DNA of 35,562 nucleotides from Bacilli bacterium (GTDB lineage Bacteria > Bacillota_I > Bacilli_A > JAJDGJ01): contig JAISTP010000055.1 of assembly GCA_031272545.1 (NCBI GenBank), positions 1 to 35,562 on the forward strand, given 5' to 3'. Positions 13,359 through 35,562 of this stretch are shown here, piece after piece. Position 1 is the stretch's first letter; each line of letters opens with the position of its first letter. Both the position numbers and the translations under genes were made by a program. Below the pieces are notes generated by a model. The model was not told the DNA's origin. It made no database searches and saw nothing but the letters and a program-made list of their open reading frames with translations.

Positions 13359-14636
13359 TTATTTTCTTTTTTCTATTTTAGTAACTCCGCCCATATAAGG
13401 AACTAAGATTTCAGGAATAGTTACGCTACCATCTTCATTTTGATAGTTTTCTAAGATTGCTGAAAAACATCTACCTACAGCTACTCCAGATCCATTTAAA
13501 GTATGAATAAATTCAACTTTACCATTTTCATCTCTAAATCTAATATTAGCTCTACGAGCTTGGAAATCTAAACAATTTGAACAAGAACTGATTTCACGAT
13601 AAGTATCAAATCCTGGCATCCATACTTCTAAATCATTAGTATTGGCAGAACAGAATCCTAAATCACCAGTTGCAAGTTGCATAACACGATATGGTAGATT
13701 AAGTCTTCTTAATACTTCTTCTGCTTCATCAGTTAGCATATCTAAAGCTTCATAAGAATGTTCTGGATGAGCATACATAACTAATTCAACCTTATTAAAT
13801 TGATGTTGTCTTATTAACCCTCTTGTGTCACGTCCAGCTGATCCAGCTTCTTGTCTAAAGCAAGGTGTGTAAGCTGTCATTTTAATTGGGAATTGCGCAT
13901 TTTGAATAATTTCATCTTGATTATAATTAGTAAGAGGAACTTCGGCAGTTGGAATTAACCAATTGTCAGTTCCATCGACATGATACATATCTTCTGAGAA
14001 CTTTGGTAATTGTCCAGTACCAAACATTGTCTTAGAGTTTACCATGAATGGTGGAATAAATTCTAAATACCCTTGTTCTTCAGTATGCATATCTAACATA
14101 TAAGCGATTAATGCTCTTTCTAATTTTGCGCCTAATCCTTTATAAGTAGCAAAACGACTACCACTTATTTTAGATGCTCTTTCAAAATCTACAATATCTA
14201 AATCTTCAGCTATTTCATAATGTGGTTTAGGTTTAAAAGTAAACTTTCTTGGTTCTCCCCACATTTTTAAGCATACATTATGGTCTTCATCACCTTCGGC
14301 TAATGTTTCACGTGGAACATTAGGTGTCATAGCTAATGCATCAAAGATTTTCTTTTCTAATTCCGCAATCTTATCATCTTCTGTTTTGATCTTATCACCA
14401 AAATCAGCTACTTCATTCATAATGGCAGTTGTATCTTCACCTTTACGTTTCATTTCACCAATTAATTTTGATTTATCATTTCTTTCTTTTTTAAATTCTT
14501 CAACTTTTTGAACAAGGACTCTTCTTTCATCATCCCATTTCACTACATCACGTAAATAACCAAAATCATCTCCACGACGATTTAATGCTGTAATAATAGT
14601 TTCTACATCATCTCTTAACATTTTAATGTCTAACAT
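13359..14636 (-). CDS. serS: Seryl-tRNA synthetase
   Basis: A class II aminoacyl-tRNA synthetase that charges tRNA-Ser. The N-terminal ~100 residues form the long antiparallel coiled coil that grips the tRNA-Ser variable arm. Catalytic motif 2 is seen in [24 protein letters not shown] (split at about 270-295) and motif 3 in [18 protein letters not shown]. The 425-residue length is normal. RBS AGAGG precedes the ATG. Expression is controlled by an upstream T-box leader with its own consensus promoter, so synthesis should rise when uncharged tRNA-Ser accumulates. The codons for NVPRET contain an exact parS sequence (14304-14319). Confidence 0.98.
14304..14319. other. parS: parS centromere site inside serS
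   Basis: The sequence TGTTTCACGTGGAACA (complement TGTTCCACGTGAAACA) is an exact match to the B. subtilis spo0J-locus parS consensus, where ParB/Spo0J loads. It lies in coding sequence (NVPRET) about 10 kb from oriC. Firmicutes parS sites are known to cluster near the origin. Confidence 0.88.
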
Positions 14637-14655: not shown

Positions 14656-14903
14656 TAATAAAATAAAAGGCCTATCATCCAAAGGGACGATAGACCGTGG
14701 TGCCACCCATATTCATTGTTTCACGTGAAACATGAAACAACCTCTTAATGTTAACGGTATTAAACCGAATATAGATACTCAATACTTTTCACTATATCAC
14801 TCCTGGGTTGATTTCTAATAATGTTACTACTAACTTACACCAAATGTTAGCTCTCTTTAAATAACTTAATTATTATACTTATCCCAATCAACGATTTGAT
14901 TGT
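14656..14903 (-). promoter_or_regulatory. T-box riboswitch leader of serS
   Basis: On the minus strand the leader shows a stem I with AGAGAG and TTGGTG-type conserved elements, an AGTA...GAA specifier-loop pair, and a candidate serine specifier UCA (14809-14811) followed by A. The T-box GGGTGGCACCACGG lies at 14695-14708. Its UGGC bulge is complementary to a GCCA tRNA end, matching the G discriminator of tRNA-Ser. A 12-bp terminator (14669-14696, stems with G-U pairs) with TTTTATTTTATT follows. Uncharged tRNA-Ser should stabilise the antiterminator and allow serS transcription. Confidence 0.95.
14717..14732. other. parS: parS centromere site inside the serS T-box leader
   Basis: TGTTTCACGTGAAACA is a perfect 16-bp palindrome and an exact parS consensus. 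It falls between stem I and the antiterminator of the T-box, where stem III is expected. Flanking TTCAT/ATGAA extends the pairing (14712-14736), so the same bases can form an RNA hairpin. Confidence 0.92.
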
Positions 14904-28752: not shown

Positions 28753-28786
28753 ATATTATGTTATTATTATTATAGAGTTGGTAATA

Positions 28787-29101
28787 ATGAATGTTAAAAC
28801 AAGAAAACAAGGAAATTCTATTACAGCAACTTTTCCTAAATATTTAGGCATTAAAGCTGGTAGAATATTTGAGCCTGTTCTTACAAATGAGGGTGTTTTA
28901 TTTAAGTTTGTTGATGATGATAACGCTTATGATGTTGATATTTATAATGATTTACATAAATATTTGATAAATAAGGGTTATTCAGGCGATAATTTATATA
29001 ATAAATTTATTGATATTCAAAATAACATTACTAAGGTTGTAGAAGTTTTAGAAAATGATTTATATGTTAGTGATAATCCAAGAAAGGATATTTTTGGTTA
29101 A
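28787..29101 (+). CDS. AbrB/MazE-fold antitoxin
   Basis: A 104-residue protein whose N-terminus (VKTRKQGNSITATFPKYLGIKAG, split over residues 3-25) is a clear swapped-hairpin AbrB/MazE/SpoVT DNA-binding domain. The C-terminal part (DVDIYNDLHKYLINKGYSGDNLYNK) is presumably the toxin-binding tail. I chose the ATG at 28787; the longer frame starts with a TTG three codons earlier that overlaps the presumed RBS (GAGTTGG). Its stop overlaps the toxin ATG by one base (TAATG), typical antitoxin-first layout. It probably represses its own operon. Confidence 0.82.
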   Translation: MNVKTRKQGNSITATFPKYLGIKAGRIFEPVLTNEGVLFKFVDDDNAYDVDIYNDLHKYLINKGYSGDNLYNKFIDIQNNITKVVEVLENDLYVSDNPRKDIFG

Positions 29102-29397
29102 TGTATAGAATTGAATATAGTAATAAAGCAGTAAAATATTTAAAAAAATTAAAAGATGTAAAACTAAAAAAATTGTTTGAAAATACTATTTATCAAAAAA
29201 TAGCAAATAGTCCTTACAAAGCTAAAAAGAAAAAAAATAACTTGTATGAAATATGGACTGTTGGTTTTAACTATCAAAAGACTGAATATAGAATTGGATA
29301 TAAAATTAAGGATAATGCAATAGTTATTATTCTATTATGTGGAAGTTATGAAAACTTCTATAATGAATTGGTTAGAATAATAGACAATTATAAATAA
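29101..29397 (+). CDS. RelE/ParE-superfamily toxin
   Basis: A 98-residue basic protein starting YRIEYSNKAVKYLKKLKD, with LYEIWTVGFNYQKTEYRIGYKI and IVIILLCGSYENF. This is the strand pattern of RelE/YafQ/HigB-type toxins, most of which cleave mRNA on the ribosome (ParE members hit gyrase). Conserved basic and aromatic residues (Arg in TEYRIGY, Tyr in GSYENFY) could be catalytic. It is translationally coupled to the AbrB/MazE-like antitoxin gene and followed by a strong terminator. The mixed family pairing is notable. Its biochemical target is inferred, not shown. Confidence 0.82.
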   Translation: MYRIEYSNKAVKYLKKLKDVKLKKLFENTIYQKIANSPYKAKKKKNNLYEIWTVGFNYQKTEYRIGYKIKDNAIVIILLCGSYENFYNELVRIIDNYK

Positions 29398-29451: not shown

Positions 29452-30108
29452 TTAGTTCCACATATAACCTTTACCTCTAATTGTTTTGATACAATCAAAA
29501 TTAATTTTTCTTCTAAGAATTTTAATAATAGATGTAATTGAATAATAACTAATATTATCATTATTATATTCCTTAGGATATAATTCATAGTATAGATCTT
29601 TAATAGAGAAAATGGTATTGGGATTACTAACTAATTTCTTAAGAATAATAAATTGACTTAGTGATAAGATTAATTTTTTATTATGGAAAATTGCTAATTT
29701 ATTTTCAATATCTAGTAGTAATTGATATTTTTTATTAAAAACAAAATTACTCATATGTATGGGATAATCATTATGCAAATCTGTTAATATGCTATCTAAT
29801 TGCAATTTATCCTTTATGACAAATAAATGATTATTACTTGGATAATTATAATAATTATTTTCATCAATAATAATTATTCTAGCATCATTTTGATACTTTA
29901 AAATTATATTAATTCTAACAATATTTTGTTCTTTATTATTAGTGGAATCAAAAATAATAGTATGGTATTTATTATTAGAAATATTTTTTTCAAAATTATT
30001 AAAATCATAATAGATTTCATATATTTTTTTATATTCAATTAATTTACATGCGACATATTTTGCATAAAAATTGTCTTCAATAAAAACAACAATATTTCTT
30101 TTCTCCAT
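29452..30108 (-). CDS. Orphan OmpR/PhoB-type response regulator with divergent receiver
   Basis: A 218-residue protein. The C-terminal 85 residues are a winged-helix Trans_reg_C domain (LSLSQFIILKKLV ... SIIKILRRKINFDCIKTIRGKGYMW). The N-terminus has receiver-like spacing: Glu11/Asp12, Asp54 (IIFDSTN) and Lys99. The usual conserved Thr/Ser is Asp82 (IIIID) and overall similarity is low. No histidine kinase is present. It is read head-on to replication and divergently from the peptide operon, with its own good promoter and RBS TTGGAGG. It probably controls the adjacent operon through the half-site array at 30214-30250; this is inference. Confidence 0.85.
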   Translation of the reverse strand: MEKRNIVVFIEDNFYAKYVACKLIEYKKIYEIYYDFNNFEKNISNNKYHTIIFDSTNNKEQNIVRINIILKYQNDARIIIIDENNYYNYPSNNHLFVIKDKLQLDSILTDLHNDYPIHMSNFVFNKKYQLLLDIENKLAIFHNKKLILSLSQFIILKKLVSNPNTIFSIKDLYYELYPKEYNNDNISYYSITSIIKILRRKINFDCIKTIRGKGYMWN

Positions 30109-30134
30109 AAATATTCCTCCAACATCATAATATT

Positions 30135-30163
30135 ATTATATGATATATATATTAAACGTTCAA
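30135..30163 (-). promoter_or_regulatory. Promoter of the orphan regulator gene
   Basis: On the minus strand TTGAAC (30158-30163), a 17-bp spacer and TATAAT (30135-30140) form a near-consensus promoter, with a leader of about 20 nt. Confidence 0.75.
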
Positions 30164-30213
30164 TTATATCCACAAATATATGTAATTATTAATTTACAAA
30201 AAATAATAATATT

Positions 30214-30250
30214 TAGACAAAAAATAGACAAATTTTGTCGTGTTTTAGTC
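30214..30250. promoter_or_regulatory. Composite symmetric operator of four GACAAA-type half-sites
   Basis: Two direct TAGACAAA repeats (30214-30221, 30225-30232; 11-bp period) are mirrored by TTTTGTC (30233-30239) and TTTTAGTC (30243-30250), also 11 bp apart. The array is symmetric about 30233. Tandem half-sites at 11 bp suit PhoB/OmpR-family dimers. It sits 17 bp upstream of the -35 of the peptide operon. Confidence 0.7.
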
Positions 30251-30266
30251 AATTTATTATTATTAA

Positions 30267-30295
30267 TTGACCATATATATATTATATGATACTAT
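30267..30295 (+). promoter_or_regulatory. Promoter of the secreted-peptide operon
   Basis: TTGACC (30267-30272), a 17-bp spacer and TACTAT (30290-30295) with an upstream TG (extended -10). The predicted start is near 30302, overlapping the perfect palindrome ACAATATATTGT (30303-30314), a possible second operator. The leader is about 64 nt and ends in AAAGGAG. Confidence 0.65.
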
Positions 30296-30365
30296 TTGAT
30301 TAACAATATATTGTATATAGATAAATATTTGTATTAGATAATTTAATGTTAAAGGAGAAAGAATT

Positions 30366-30794
30366 ATGAGAAAGCTATTATTATTATTCTTTTGTTTTAT
30401 TATGACATTTACTTTTGTAAATGCAAATAGTATTAGTGCTGCTCAAGCAGATCCAATGGAATATAAAATAACTATAAATTATGGTAAATATTCAACAATG
30501 TCTGGTGATAAAGGAGTATCATACAAATATTATAAAGGAACTAATAAAATAGATAAAAGTGCTTATGTTATTAATAGTAATTCTAGTATTAATTTTAGTC
30601 ATTACATTTCAGATAAAGCTGGAAATAGAAAAAGCAATTTTGGGACACATATTAAAACCCACCGCACTTCATATAAAAATTATGCTTTAAGAGATGTTAG
30701 TTATGGTTGTCGATTATGGGCATCTAGAGAACATCTTATAGATAGATCTTATACAATAAGTGGTTCTTGGTCATCTGATGATAAGCTTAAATAA
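30366..30794 (+). CDS. Secreted peptide, lactococcin-972-like bacteriocin candidate
   Basis: A 142-residue precursor. Residues 1-28 are a Sec signal peptide (MRKLLLLFFCFIMTFTF, then NANSISAAQA), leaving a mature part of about 114 residues rich in Tyr, Ser, Lys and Asn. It contains a GVSYKYYKGTNK segment followed by a repeated S-Y pattern and one Cys (SYGCRLW). This recalls lactococcin-972-type bacteriocins, which block septum formation through lipid II and are encoded with membrane proteins and an ABC ATPase, as here. Sequence resemblance is modest; the assignment rests mainly on gene context. It is not a glycine-leader or lantibiotic type. RBS AAAGGAG. Confidence 0.55.
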   Translation: MRKLLLLFFCFIMTFTFVNANSISAAQADPMEYKITINYGKYSTMSGDKGVSYKYYKGTNKIDKSAYVINSNSSINFSHYISDKAGNRKSNFGTHIKTHRTSYKNYALRDVSYGCRLWASREHLIDRSYTISGSWSSDDKLK

Positions 30795-31656
30795 TAAGTG
30801 GAGCTTAAGACTAGCTTTAGATAAATTAATTTTTCAAGCTAGTCTTTGTTCATATTCAATAAGAGTAGTTATTTATACCATTATATTATTAGTAATGTAT
30901 TTTTCATTTTCTGGTTTAGTAGGGATATTTAATGGTACTACACAATTTGGAACTACATATGAAATGTTAAGAGAAGTATTTAATATATATAGTTTTTCAC
31001 ATTTTAGTAATGATTATATAATGCTAATTTTTATTATTGAAAGTATTATTCATGTATTTATTTCAGATAAATATAAAAATGAACAATTAATTTATTTTGT
31101 AGGTCGAGAGAAAAAAGTTAATAAGCAATATTTTAAATATAATTTAAAATTAATCTTAAAATCATCATTAATGATTTATTCAATTTTTATATTAGGATGT
31201 TTAGTAATAATTATAGGTAATTTTATAGTTACTAAAGAAATAATGATTATGAATCGTCATTATTTTGTAACATATTTTATTGATCCTCCTTTTGATAAAT
31301 TTTTAATAGTTCATTTTTATCCACAATATTTTTTATTTATAATATGGATTCCTGCAATTATAAATTATATTATTCTTTTTTTTATGCAAATATTAGTAAA
31401 TGATATTGTAAAAAATAAGATTATGACATTATTGTTTTCCGTGGTAATTTATTTATTTATAATGATAATTTTAATTAATATAAACATTATGAGCAATTGT
31501 CCACTTGATTTACATTATTTCGCACCTAGTCTTTCAATATTTAATTTAATAAGCCGTTATTCTCAATTATATTCTTGGTTAAATATTGGTGGTTTACTAA
31601 TAATATTAATTGTTATGTTTACTATAAAAAGAAGGTCTAATTATAATGATTTCTAA
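30778..31656 (+). CDS. Polytopic membrane protein of the peptide operon (ABC-2-like permease half)
   Basis: About 293 residues with six predicted membrane helices: one near the N-terminus, then a loop, then YIMLIFIIESIIHVFI, LKSSLMIYSIFILGCLVIII, LFIIWIPAIINYIILFF, MTLLFSVVIYLFIMIILI and a final helix. No catalytic motif is seen. The start is uncertain. I prefer the ATG at 30778, translationally coupled to the peptide stop (17-bp overlap); a GTG at 30760 is also open. It overlaps the next membrane-protein gene by 11 bp. With the following gene and the ATPase it probably forms an ABC exporter or immunity complex. Confidence 0.75.
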   Translation: MISLNNKWSLRLALDKLIFQASLCSYSIRVVIYTIILLVMYFSFSGLVGIFNGTTQFGTTYEMLREVFNIYSFSHFSNDYIMLIFIIESIIHVFISDKYKNEQLIYFVGREKKVNKQYFKYNLKLILKSSLMIYSIFILGCLVIIIGNFIVTKEIMIMNRHYFVTYFIDPPFDKFLIVHFYPQYFLFIIWIPAIINYIILFFMQILVNDIVKNKIMTLLFSVVIYLFIMIILININIMSNCPLDLHYFAPSLSIFNLISRYSQLYSWLNIGGLLIILIVMFTIKRRSNYNDF

Positions 31657-32875
31657 ATTAAAAAATAATAAATATATAATAATTTTAATTTTAATATATG
31701 GATATTCATTTTATACTAATTTTGATTATGCAATGGTAATACCAATTAACGAATTAGATATTGGTGCTGTTTTTTTCTCTAATAATCTATTTACTATGTT
31801 TATATTTATTATCATTACTGAAAGAATGCAGCATATGATAAAAATGTTAAAATATCGGTTAGGTAAAAATGAATTAATATTTAAAGATATGATATTTTTA
31901 GAATTAAAATATACAATTAAGTACTTTATTTTAATTCAAGTAATTTATTTATTTTATTGTATTCTAATTAATAAAGAAATGTTAATAACTTTATGGTTAT
32001 TTTCTATAAGTAGCATGTATTTTGGAATTATCATATTAAGAGCAATACTAAGTTATATAATATCACCAAGAATAACAAGTTTAATTTTATTTATGATTCT
32101 TTGTTTAAATTTAGGTATTAACAATTTATTTCCTAATTTATTAATTTTTCAAATAAATATTTGGTTAAATATCTTTAATATGAATGATGAATATGCTAAT
32201 TTATTTAAAATTGGATGTATTATAATTACATTTTTATTAGTATATTTTGGTTATAAATATCATTGGTTTAATAAAGTTAAATTGTTGTTATCTAAAATAA
32301 ATATCTTTATTATTTTATCTATTATCAATTTAATATTATTATCTTTATCTTTAGTAAATAGATATCAATTTAATATTAATATCTTGTTTTATAATGCAGA
32401 TAATTATTATAGTGTATTTGATTATATTTTAGGAAATTATCTTTTTTATTTTATTCTTATTTATAGTATTACTTCATATTTATATACTATTAATAATGGA
32501 ATTTATAATTATTTTAAGTATCGAATAAAACTAAAAGAGAAATTAAAAATAGTAATTATAAAAAAAACAAATTTAAATTTAATATTTAATATATGTTTAA
32601 TAATCGTTACTAATGTAATTATTATGATTAGTGGTAAGTATGATGCTAATATTATTCAATTAATAATGGATATAGTTAAGTTAGTACTTTGTATGACAAT
32701 CATAAATTACTTAGCTTTATTATTAAATAATACTATTGATCAAAAGATAATAGTTATGAATATTATATATTCAATATTAATTATGCTTTTAACAATTTTT
32801 AATATCTATTTATTGATTGGTTTATTAATTATTGAAATTATAATGTTACTTTTAAAGAAAGAGGTTATATCGTGA
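31646..32875 (+). CDS. Large polytopic membrane protein of the peptide operon
   Basis: A 409-residue protein with about eleven membrane helices. The cytoplasmic motif MLKYRLGKNELIFKDMIFLELKYT resembles the loop after helix 2 of the preceding protein (IYFVGREKKVNKQYFKYNLKLI), suggesting the two are distant relatives acting as a pair. I do not recognise a named family. GAAGG precedes the ATG. Its TGA stop overlaps the GTG start of the ATPase by four bases. The likely role is as permease partner of the ATPase, in export of the peptide or in producer immunity. Confidence 0.75.
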   Translation: MISKLKNNKYIIILILIYGYSFYTNFDYAMVIPINELDIGAVFFSNNLFTMFIFIIITERMQHMIKMLKYRLGKNELIFKDMIFLELKYTIKYFILIQVIYLFYCILINKEMLITLWLFSISSMYFGIIILRAILSYIISPRITSLILFMILCLNLGINNLFPNLLIFQINIWLNIFNMNDEYANLFKIGCIIITFLLVYFGYKYHWFNKVKLLLSKINIFIILSIINLILLSLSLVNRYQFNINILFYNADNYYSVFDYILGNYLFYFILIYSITSYLYTINNGIYNYFKYRIKLKEKLKIVIIKKTNLNLIFNICLIIVTNVIIMISGKYDANIIQLIMDIVKLVLCMTIINYLALLLNNTIDQKIIVMNIIYSILIMLLTIFNIYLLIGLLIIEIIMLLLKKEVIS

Positions 32876-33513
32876 TTGAATTAAAAAATATAAGTAAGAT
32901 ATATAAAGGTAGAAATATTTTAAATAATATAAGTTTTAAATTTAAAGATAAAGGATGTATTGGTATTGTTGGGCCAAATGGATGTGGTAAATCAGTACTT
33001 CTTAATTGTATATGTGGGTTTATTAAACCTAATAGTGGCGAAGTAATAATTGATAATAAAATAATAGGGAAAGATATTGATTATATAATAAATGCTGGTA
33101 TCATTGTCAATTCTCCTAATATGGTACCTCATTTAAGCATTGAAGATAATTTACAATTAATCAGTAAAATCTTAAATTTAAAAGAAACTAATAATAGAAT
33201 TAATATCTTACTTAAATATTTTGAATTAGAAGAAGATAAATATACTTTATTTGATAATTGTAGTCAAGGAATGAAACAAAAAACAAGATTAATTCAAGCA
33301 TTAATGGAACCATCAAAGTATTTAATCTTAGATGAACCAACAGTTGCTTTAGATCATCATATGATAAAAAAATTAAGAGATTTATTATTAGAATTAAAAA
33401 AAGATAAATTAATTATTATTACTTCACATAATGATCAAGATATTAAATTATTATGTGATGAAATATATGAATTTAGAGATGGAAGAATTGAAAAATATGA
33501 AGAGATTAATTAA
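32872..33513 (+). CDS. ABC transporter ATP-binding protein of the peptide operon
   Basis: A 213-residue nucleotide-binding subunit. Walker A is GPNGCGKS (34-41), the signature is CSQGMKQKTRL (130-140; usually LSGGM or LSGGQ), Walker B is LILDEPTVALD (151-161) and the H-loop is TSHND (His186). The closest type is the small ATPases of ABC-2 and bacteriocin immunity exporters. The GTG start overlaps the upstream stop (GTGA), with AAAGAGG before it. It presumably powers the two preceding membrane proteins. Confidence 0.93.
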   Translation: MIELKNISKIYKGRNILNNISFKFKDKGCIGIVGPNGCGKSVLLNCICGFIKPNSGEVIIDNKIIGKDIDYIINAGIIVNSPNMVPHLSIEDNLQLISKILNLKETNNRINILLKYFELEEDKYTLFDNCSQGMKQKTRLIQALMEPSKYLILDEPTVALDHHMIKKLRDLLLELKKDKLIIITSHNDQDIKLLCDEIYEFRDGRIEKYEEIN

Positions 33514-34027
33514 TAAAAATACTTATATGATAATTTTACTATTAATTATATTCATACTTATTAATGGTTGTAGTACTGGCTATTATGATTATGCTATTTA
33601 TGATTTAGATAATAAAGATAAAAATAATTATTTACTTAAGAATTATCAATATTTAGATATATGTAAAAAAGAATATAAAGATTCTGAACAAATAGGTGAT
33701 GGTTATTTTCGCTGTTTTAATAATAATATAAAAATTGAAATAAAAGCTTATGAAAATAATACTGGATTATTTGATATTAATTTAATTTTTAATAATGAAG
33801 TTAATATAGAAGATGTTCTTAATGAATTAAATAAAATATATCAAAGTAATAATTTAAAAAAGATGAGTTTAAATCAATTAAATGAATTAATTAATGATGA
33901 GAAAATAAGAAAATTTAATAATATACAAATTACTTCAAAATATGATGATATTCATAATGAAAATTTAATTGTTATAACTGGCTATAAGGTTGATGATAAA
34001 GATAATTATATTAAAGATATTAAATAA
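33497..34027 (+). CDS. Lipoprotein, first of a tandem paralogous pair
   Basis: A 176-residue protein with a lipoprotein signal: MKRLINKNTYMIILLLIIF, then LINGC, lipid-anchored at Cys25. I chose the ATG at 33497, with GGAAG upstream, overlapping the ATPase by 17 bp; the longer frame from 33431 reads through the ATPase gene. The mature part contains LLKNYQYLDICK, a second Cys (FRCFNN), and LNELNKIYQSNNLKKM, all shared with the next gene. No known family recognised. An extracytoplasmic immunity or substrate-binding role in the peptide system is a plausible inference. Confidence 0.82.
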   Translation: MKRLINKNTYMIILLLIIFILINGCSTGYYDYAIYDLDNKDKNNYLLKNYQYLDICKKEYKDSEQIGDGYFRCFNNNIKIEIKAYENNTGLFDINLIFNNEVNIEDVLNELNKIYQSNNLKKMSLNQLNELINDEKIRKFNNIQITSKYDDIHNENLIVITGYKVDDKDNYIKDIK

Positions 34028-34054
34028 TATAGTATTTAGAAAAGAGGTAATAAT

Positions 34055-34573
34055 ATGAAACTAAAAAACATAAACACAATATTGTTCCTATTACTTGTAT
34101 CAATATTATTTGTAGGGTGTCAAACAAATAAATTTAAAGAGTATGAACCTTTTACTAGCGAAATAAGTAAGAATGATTTTATTTTAAAAAATTATCAATA
34201 TTTAGATGAATGCAAAAATTACCAAGATTATGCTTTAGTAGGTAATGGTATGTATCATTGTAAAAATAATAATATTAACATTGAAATGAATGCTTATGAT
34301 AATAATATTGGTCTACATTTAATAGATTTAACATATGATAGTAACGTAAATAATAAAACAATTCTAAATGAAATTAATAAAATATATAAGAGTAATAATT
34401 TAAAAGCAATGAATGAAAAACAACTTAATGAATTATATAAAGATGGGCATAAAAGAATATTTAATGAAATGGAAATATATTATAGTTATGATAAAGATAT
34501 TAAACAAAATGTTATATCAATAACAGGTTATAAAGTAAGTAATATTTATCTAGAAAGCAAATATATAAACTAA
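34055..34573 (+). CDS. Lipoprotein, second of a tandem paralogous pair
   Basis: A 172-residue protein with signal MKLKNINTILFLLLVSILF and lipobox FVGC (Cys22). It is clearly homologous to its neighbour: ILKNYQYLDECK, GNGMYHCKNNNINIEMNAYDNN, INKIYKSNNLKAMNEKQLNEL and ISITGYKV align over nearly the whole length. AGAGG precedes the ATG and a terminator follows. The pair arose by duplication and has diverged. Last gene of the peptide operon; function not known. Confidence 0.85.
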   Translation: MKLKNINTILFLLLVSILFVGCQTNKFKEYEPFTSEISKNDFILKNYQYLDECKNYQDYALVGNGMYHCKNNNINIEMNAYDNNIGLHLIDLTYDSNVNNKTILNEINKIYKSNNLKAMNEKQLNELYKDGHKRIFNEMEIYYSYDKDIKQNVISITGYKVSNIYLESKYIN

Positions 34574-34595: not shown

Positions 34596-34632
34596 AAAAA
34601 CAATAATCATATAATAATGGTTATTGTTTTTT
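34596..34632 (+). terminator. Terminator of the peptide operon
   Basis: A 15-bp stem with one G-U pair (AAAAACAATAATCAT with ATGGTTATTGTTTTT) and a run of T, 22 nt after the last lipoprotein stop. Confidence 0.85.
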
Positions 34633-34681: not shown

Positions 34682-35562
34682 ATGATGAATAAAAAACAAA
34701 GTGATTCTAATAAAGCTATCTATGCTGCATTACTTGCTAATTTAGGTGTTGCTTTAATGAAGTATATTGTAGCTTTCTTTTCAAGATCAAGTTCAATGTT
34801 TTCAGAAGCAATTCATTCAACTAGTGATACTTTGAATCAAATATTATTACTTATTGGTAAAAGAAAAGCAAAAGAAAAATCTAATGAAAAACATCCTTTT
34901 GGATATGCTCGTAATCGTTATATTTATTCAGCTTTAGTTGCCATTTTATTATTCTTTGTTGGTGGTATTTTCGCTATATATGAATCTACTCATAAAATAG
35001 AACATGTATTAAGTAGTACTAATCATATTATTGAAACTAATGCTTTATTAATAGCAGGAGTTATTTTAATAGCAAGTATTTGTTTGGAAGGATTTAGTTT
35101 AAGAACAGCTTTAAAAGAAGTAAAACATTTAAATCATAAAAATGAAAAAACAATTCATTTTTTTAAAAGGACAAAGAATAGTGAAATAGTTGTTGTGGCT
35201 GTTGAAGATAGCACAGCTTTATTAGGATTATTTCTGGCTTTAATAGGAGTTAGTCTTACTTTACTTACTCATAATCCTATATATGATGCTTTTGGTGGAT
35301 TAAGTATTGGGCTGTTACTAATTATAGCTTCTATTATCTTAGGAATAAGAATGAAATCTTTAATTATTGGTGAATCTTTATCAGATGAAGAGCTAACAAT
35401 AATTAAAACTATTATTCAAAATAATCCCTATGTATTACATGTTATTGATATAAAAAGTATTCATATCGGTCCTGAAGATGTGTTATTAGGAATTAAGATT
35501 GATTATGATGATGATAAAGAATTTAATCATAGTGGTGAAACTAATAAAATAGAAAAAGAAAT
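34682..35562 (+). CDS. Cation diffusion facilitator (CDF) family transporter (partial, C-terminus cut by window edge)
   Basis: About 293 codons of a CDF proton-coupled metal exporter (Zn, Mn or Fe). Helix 2 shows EAIHSTSDTLNQ, a His-x3-Asp metal site, and the fifth helix shows VVAVEDSTALLGLFLALIG, the usual Glu/Asp pair region. KHPFGYARNRYIYS is the conserved loop after helix 2. The C-terminal cytosolic domain has begun (SLSDEELTIIKTIIQ ... IHIGPEDVLLGIKI). The start could be the ATG at 34682 or 34685. A TATAAT lies at 34657-34662. The start of a new transcription unit after the terminator is likely. Confidence 0.9.
   Translation, partial: MMNKKQSDSNKAIYAALLANLGVALMKYIVAFFSRSSSMFSEAIHSTSDTLNQILLLIGKRKAKEKSNEKHPFGYARNRYIYSALVAILLFFVGGIFAIYESTHKIEHVLSSTNHIIETNALLIAGVILIASICLEGFSLRTALKEVKHLNHKNEKTIHFFKRTKNSEIVVVAVEDSTALLGLFLALIGVSLTLLTHNPIYDAFGGLSIGLLLIIASIILGIRMKSLIIGESLSDEELTIIKTIIQNNPYVLHVIDIKSIHIGPEDVLLGIKIDYDDDKEFNHSGETNKIEKE

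Follow-up and report, generated by a model that had tools for sequence, protein, structure and literature searches.

A secreted-protein/ABC transporter operon in a Bacilli bacterium, possibly a regulated bacteriocin-like system of an undescribed family

What is the function of an operon in which the gene of a small secreted protein is followed by those of an ATP-binding cassette (ABC) transporter and two lipoproteins? The operon lies in a stretch of 35,562 nucleotides from a Bacilli bacterium (contig JAISTP010000055.1), which was analyzed as a whole and is called the window here. It encodes a secreted protein (SP), two membrane proteins (MP1 and MP2), an ABC ATPase, and lipoproteins A and B, and is faced by a divergent regulator gene. 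An initial annotation suggested a regulated bacteriocin-like system resembling the lactococcin-972 loci. Our analysis indicates that the first part of this suggestion is still the most likely reading, but that the operon is not of the lactococcin-972 type. We interpret the operon as serving regulated bacteriocin-like secretion and self-protection, with a predicted activity and a probability of roughly 45%, on the basis of the Sec-type signal peptide and basic mature part of SP, the nearest model of the ATPase (TIGR03740), the lipoproteins, the regulator, the genomic context, and the accessory distribution.

The initial annotation placed the operon at 30366 to 34573, tightly packed and with a single terminator at its end, and both points were borne out. 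The open reading frame (ORF) calls verified the whole gene set (Table 1), with overlaps of 17 bp (SP/MP1), 11 bp (MP1/MP2), 4 bp (MP2/ATPase), and 17 bp (ATPase/lipoprotein A) and a gap of 27 bp between the lipoprotein genes. The ATG at 30778 was taken as the start of MP1; the ORF call itself begins at a GTG farther upstream (30760). The operon ends in a stem with a U tract, and none of 200 shuffled sequences was equally stable. This A/U-rich stem was missed by a G+C-based terminator scan, and an Rfam search gave no match within the operon.

A synteny comparison across related genomes revealed that SP, MP1, MP2, and ATPase keep one order in a paralogous operon of the same genome, in a sister genome, and in three other Bacilli, and the order is therefore not due to chance. 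In the paralogous operon (L007), SP and ATPase are 42% and 60% identical to those of the window, MP1 and MP2 are present, and neither a regulator nor a lipoprotein gene lies alongside. The MP2 gene of this copy is split into two overlapping frames (L007, 6919 to 8146), either by a natural frameshift or by an assembly error. The sister species (G001, a metagenome-assembled Bacilli genome, JAITPW01) has at least five loci: three that have a divergent regulator and an SP of the same type, and two more divergent ones with a lipoprotein gene after the ATPase gene, the SP of one of which looks broken. Contigs of this genome that begin inside an ATPase or a lipoprotein gene carry downstream lipoproteins. 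In one sister-genome locus (L083, 698 to 1087), SP is interrupted by stops and MP1, MP2, ATPase, and lipoprotein are intact, a pattern expected if immunity outlasts toxin loss. Two operons of the sister genome end at contig edges (L009, 1 to 300; L010, 6960 to 7262) and have near-identical MP2 and differing SPs, which may reflect recent recombination or an assembly-breaking repeat. Beyond the genus, the genomes G091, G368, and G356 carry the operon. G368 holds two tandem copies of the entire SP-MP1-MP2-ATPase operon (L050, 3865 to 6531 and 8761 to 11419), with a C39-like peptidase gene between them.

We sampled about 395 genomes of the class and 392 of the phylum, partly overlapping, for SP. 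The family is rare and patchy, because only the five genomes described above gave convincing matches. Many genomes gave weak SP profile matches (E 1e-4 to 0.1), which were read as chance because they were mostly parts of long unrelated frames. No relatives were found in plasmids and viral contigs, and the genomic neighbourhoods of the SP operons are all different. Every convincing match in an MP1 profile search of 346 genomes adjoins an SP gene, so that ABC genes lacking the secreted peptide, which the initial annotation had named as counterevidence, did not appear; one further weak match (E 2e-4, with stops) was unconvincing. The window operon thus belongs to a small, uncharacterized, recurrent secreted-protein/ABC family that is apparently undescribed.

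The SP of the window has a Sec-type signal peptide, a mature part of ~115 aa with an isoelectric point (pI) of 9.6, and the C-terminal motif SRxxxxDxxxxIxGSWSxDD. Across the family, the mature parts have roughly 90 to 125 residues, a pI of 7.9 to 9.9, and no conserved Cys, and the conserved C-terminal region ends in hydrophobic-x-G-(S/N)-W. No Pfam or PHROG family was matched above cut-off by SP, MP1, MP2, or either lipoprotein. The GLPGLI match of SP in NCBIfam (23 bits, cut-off 50) was taken as composition noise. It might be proposed that SP belongs to the ABC transporter as a subunit for substrate binding or assembly, with a role in envelope maintenance and not in competition, a hypothesis that draws on the strict SP-MP1 linkage and on the 17-bp overlap of the two genes in both operons of the window genome. 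However, SP diverges faster than the ATPase between the paralogues (42% versus 60% identity) and, contrary to a subunit role, has neither lipobox nor anchor, and the operons, in contrast to housekeeping genes, are patchy, multicopy, and scattered over unrelated genomic positions. We consider a subunit role quite improbable.

The window operon does combine a secreted peptide, a membrane protein, and an ATPase as lactococcin-972 loci do, and its ATPase matches TIGR03608 at 96.5 bits (cut-off 254.85), as it matches many ABC models. However, neither the 142-residue product nor its relatives matched the lactococcin-972 profile (PF09683, TIGR01653), and a profile-profile comparison of mature SP with lactococcin 972 gave nothing above shuffled controls. 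MP1 and MP2 matched none of the bacteriocin-associated membrane families (TIGR01654, DUF1430, FtsX-like), and in a maximum-likelihood tree the window ATPase falls outside the lactococcin-972 type. As a positive control, we used a genuine lactococcin-972 locus of the sister genome (L128, G001:C12, 1249 to 4215), which is independent of the SP operons and differently built: its secreted protein matches both PF09683 and TIGR01653, its ATPase matches TIGR03608 at 264.2 bits, and its membrane protein of 656 aa has TIGR01654 and DUF1430 matches below cut-off. The lactococcin-972 likeness was therefore rejected, and we regard an assignment of the window operon to this type as extremely improbable. 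In the window genome, one ATPase outside the operon (L096, G000:C40:53032-53634) does group with the lactococcin-972-type ATPases (support 100/98), although the genome yielded no PF09683 gene.

The best NCBIfam model of the window ATPase is TIGR03740 (lantibiotic protection; 136 bits, E 1.2e-39, cut-off 310). In the tree, the SP-linked ATPases form one clade (97/97), apart from the lactococcin-972-type ATPases. Genes of bacteriocin systems occur beside distant members of the family: a LanM lanthipeptide synthetase gene (TIGR03897, above cut-off) lies near the SP operon in G091, and lactococcin-972-type ABC genes lie near the SP loci in G368 and G356.

The neighbours of the SP-linked clade in the tree are the ATPases linked to DUF2712 proteins, and the two groups are probably sisters, with a support of 81/84 that is below the strong-support line. 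The window operon might thus be a distant branch of the Bacillales DUF2712-DUF2705-WxPxxD-ABC operons in which the second and third membrane modules were fused as MP2, which with 409 aa and ~10 transmembrane segments may indeed consist of two modules. In the DUF2712 loci that we compared (Priestia plasmids NZ_CP086209 and NZ_CP072476 and one Listeria locus), the DUF2712 protein is followed by three membrane proteins (DUF2705/WxPxxD/DUF2705 where annotated) and an ATPase, with a further gene directly after the ATPase in two of the three. Order and summed membrane length (298+409 versus 254+233+243 aa) are thus alike, and SP and DUF2712 have a similar C-terminal hydrophobic-x-G-x-W motif. However, MP1 and MP2 match neither the DUF2705 nor the WxPxxD models, which the Priestia control proteins do match, and PF10916 was matched by no SP member and found nowhere in the window genome. 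Gene order and the C-terminal motif had hinted at membership of SP in DUF2712, but this was unsupported by the profile comparison, which was not above shuffled controls; a PDB sequence search with SP and DUF2712 profiles gave no match. The SP family is possibly a distant cousin of the DUF2712 operons, and we give this ancestry somewhat less than an even chance. It is compatible with a bacteriocin-like function, and our confidences therefore do not sum to one.

The divergent gene was initially annotated as an OmpR-like regulator, in agreement with its Trans_reg_C match (E 5.7e-10); Response_reg was not matched. An AlphaFold2 (AF2) model with a predicted local distance difference test (pLDDT) score of 76.5 shows a receiver-like domain and then a winged helix, and a Foldseek search with it found OmpR/PhoB proteins (E 4e-10). 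The window regulator has an Asp aligned at the phospho-acceptor position, at which three syntenic orthologues have Y, K, or S, and no histidine kinase gene adjoins the regulator. Pseudo-receivers are common, and their switching is largely unknown (PMC12632262). The regulators of the G001 loci are only 22 to 25% identical to that of the window.

Between the two operons of the window genome, the 165 bp that precede SP share 81% identity, compared with 52% for the next ~90 bp upstream, at most 64% for shuffled controls, and nucleotide identities of 62%, 54%, and 68% for the SP, MP1, and ATPase genes. The region contains an operator-like array, TTTAGACAAAA / AATAGACAAAT / TTTGTCGTGTT / TTAGTCAATTT with ~11-bp phasing, around a central dyad AGACAAATTTTGTC at 30226 to 30239. 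Conserved in both operons are TTTAG(A/C)CAAAA, AGACAAANTTTGTC, and TTTTAG(T/G)CAATTT, again in ~11-bp phase. In both, the dyad begins 140 to 141 bp before the SP start codon, and the array is immediately followed by a common TTGAC −35 box; the score of the candidate promoter by itself is not above chance, and the TTGAC is kept in the paralogue. Among the 130 loci examined, the exact dyad is confined to these two sites. The evidence for the dyad is its conservation and position, because its score against A+T-rich shuffles is unremarkable (2/60 for the window, 20/60 for the paralogue). The G001 loci have different repeats at about the same position. The position of the array would fit an activator, and since only one of the two operons has an adjoining regulator and the upstream region is shared, one regulator may drive both.

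A regulator and a transporter of this kind could also belong to a resistance or sensing module against foreign antimicrobial peptides, in which the transporter and the lipoproteins would give protection and SP would be a secreted decoy, chaperone, or signal and not a toxin. The CprABC and LctFEG resistance operons combine LanFEG-like transporters, regulators, and sometimes a lipoprotein (PMC5786555), and the window operon has neither a modification gene nor a dedicated exporter gene for SP. However, the resistance operons have no obligatory Sec-secreted partner of ~115 aa encoded by the first gene, a position that SP always occupies here; the window operon lacks the histidine kinase that such a module would lead one to expect; and multiple divergent copies per genome suit variable toxins better. 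We find this explanation unlikely.

In the bacteriocin-like reading, the orphan OmpR-type regulator would activate the operon by binding to the repeat/dyad array immediately 5' of the −35 box, and would probably activate the regulator-less paralogous operon too. SP would leave the cell via Sec with removal of its signal peptide, and the basic mature protein would act on the envelopes of related or neighbouring cells. An ABC-2/LanFEG-like transporter formed by MP1, MP2, and the ATPase would clear SP from the producer membrane, and the two lipoproteins, which are tandem duplicates, would sequester SP at the surface in a LanI-like manner. The gene set and its recurrence, the linkage of SP with MP1, the ATPase clade, and the common cis region are observations; secretion, toxicity, immunity, regulator binding, and activation are predictions.

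Several points weigh against this interpretation. No member of the family has known antimicrobial activity or immunity, SP matches no known toxin, and the AF2 model of SP, built from four sequences, is unreliable (pLDDT 42) and was not used for a fold search. Among the LanE, LanG, and ABC-2 models of NCBIfam and Pfam, none is matched by MP1 or MP2, and for ABC genes coupled to a secreted protein, export, sensing, or detoxification would be equally plausible roles. Lipoprotein genes lie 3' of the ATPase gene in several loci, but none follows it in the paralogue, G091, G368, or G356; by analogy with LanI, such an absence from some loci could fit a helper role. The search for defence systems with PADLOC gave generic ATPase matches and weak lipoprotein B matches only, and a PIN_8 match of lipoprotein B below cut-off was taken as composition noise. 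We tentatively propose, with more doubt than confidence, that unmodified Sec-secreted proteins of ~115 residues form a new bacteriocin class, each with a LanFEG-like transporter and paired LanI-like lipoproteins for self-protection; a genome would hold several divergent copies, and one orphan regulator of the receiver type would switch them together via a shared operator.

Table 1. Features of the operon and its regulatory region in the window
Feature	Position	Strand	Remark
Orphan OmpR/PhoB-type regulator, divergent, 218 aa (receiver-like N-domain + winged helix)	29452..30108	-	
Conserved regulatory region and 5' leader	30201..30365	+	81% identity to upstream region of paralogous operon
Operator-like array	30212..30255	+	Common to paralogous operon
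Candidate promoter TTGACC-17-TACTAT, TG before second hexamer	30267..30295	+	Consensus scan
SP, secreted protein, 142 aa	30366..30794	+	Without match in Pfam, PHROG, or PADLOC; in NCBIfam below cut-off only
MP1, membrane protein, ~6 transmembrane segments	30778..31656	+	Found solely adjoining SP
MP2, membrane protein, 409 aa, ~10 transmembrane segments	31646..32875	+	No family match
ABC ATPase, 213 aa	32872..33513	+	Nearest NCBIfam model TIGR03740, below cut-off
Lipoprotein A, 176 aa, lipobox ...ILINGC	33497..34027	+	Homologues 3' of ATPase in sister genome
Lipoprotein B, 172 aa, lipobox ...LFVGC	34055..34573	+	47% identical to lipoprotein A
Terminator stem-loop, A/U-rich, then U tract	34596..34631	+	-13.3 kcal/mol, z -4.0

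Directly before the regulator gene, the window carries a ParE-like toxin two-gene module (28778 to 29397; PF15781, E 1.3e-16). The operon is followed by a truncated gene (34682 to 35560), cation-efflux-like by eye, which has no relative in G001, G002, and G003 at E 1e-20, and this flank may be accessory too. Farther away, a T-box leader (14680 to 14900, minus strand; Rfam, 134 bits) lies upstream of a minus-strand ORF of 425 aa (13359 to 14636).

Compared with known systems, the three-gene loci of lactococcin 972 and streptococcin B also start with an unmodified Sec-secreted protein, followed by the membrane protein(s) and ATPase, but the secreted family, ATPase type, and membrane protein type all differ. 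The functions of B and C in these loci are unproven (PMC11796350). The CprABC, LctFEG, and NsrFE1E2G operons likewise have an ABC-2 transporter, several membrane proteins, a regulator, and sometimes an adjoining lipoprotein (PMC5786555), but their regulator is part of a two-component system with a histidine kinase, and they have no gene for a secreted protein. In the lantibiotic immunity set, the LanI lipoprotein binds the substrate and the LanFEG ABC transporter expels it (PMC5786555). The window operon resembles this set in its two membrane proteins and surface lipoproteins and in an ATPase that may be LanF-like. However, it has no lanthipeptide genes, neither MP1 nor MP2 matches a LanE/LanG model, the ATPase score is far under the TIGR03740 cut-off (136 versus 310 bits), and the substrate would be an unmodified Sec-secreted protein of ~115 aa. 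If the operon is a bacteriocin system, the LanFEG/LanI principle of protection would be widened to such proteins, and the operon pair of the window genome provides within-genome material for cross-immunity tests.

The DUF2712 operons share the order of small secreted protein, membrane proteins, and ATPase with the window operon, and the ATPases are adjacent in the tree, whereas the secreted and membrane proteins have no detectable sequence homology to SP, MP1, and MP2. The window operon has two membrane genes instead of three and adds the paired lipoproteins, the divergent orphan OmpR-type regulator, and the shared operator. Bacillus subtilis has a DUF2712 gene, which we take to be yybN, presumably in an operon yybNMLKJ. 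The function of the yybN operon is unknown (PMC11841835), and YybJ2KL is a predicted exporter (PMC11466899). To these YybN-type operons of secreted protein and ABC genes, annotated in Bacillales with unknown function, the SP family adds a lipoprotein pair, a dedicated regulator and a conserved operator, as well as neighbouring bacteriocin genes in distant members; should the family prove to be a bacteriocin system, a role would also be suggested for the unexplained yybN-type operons.

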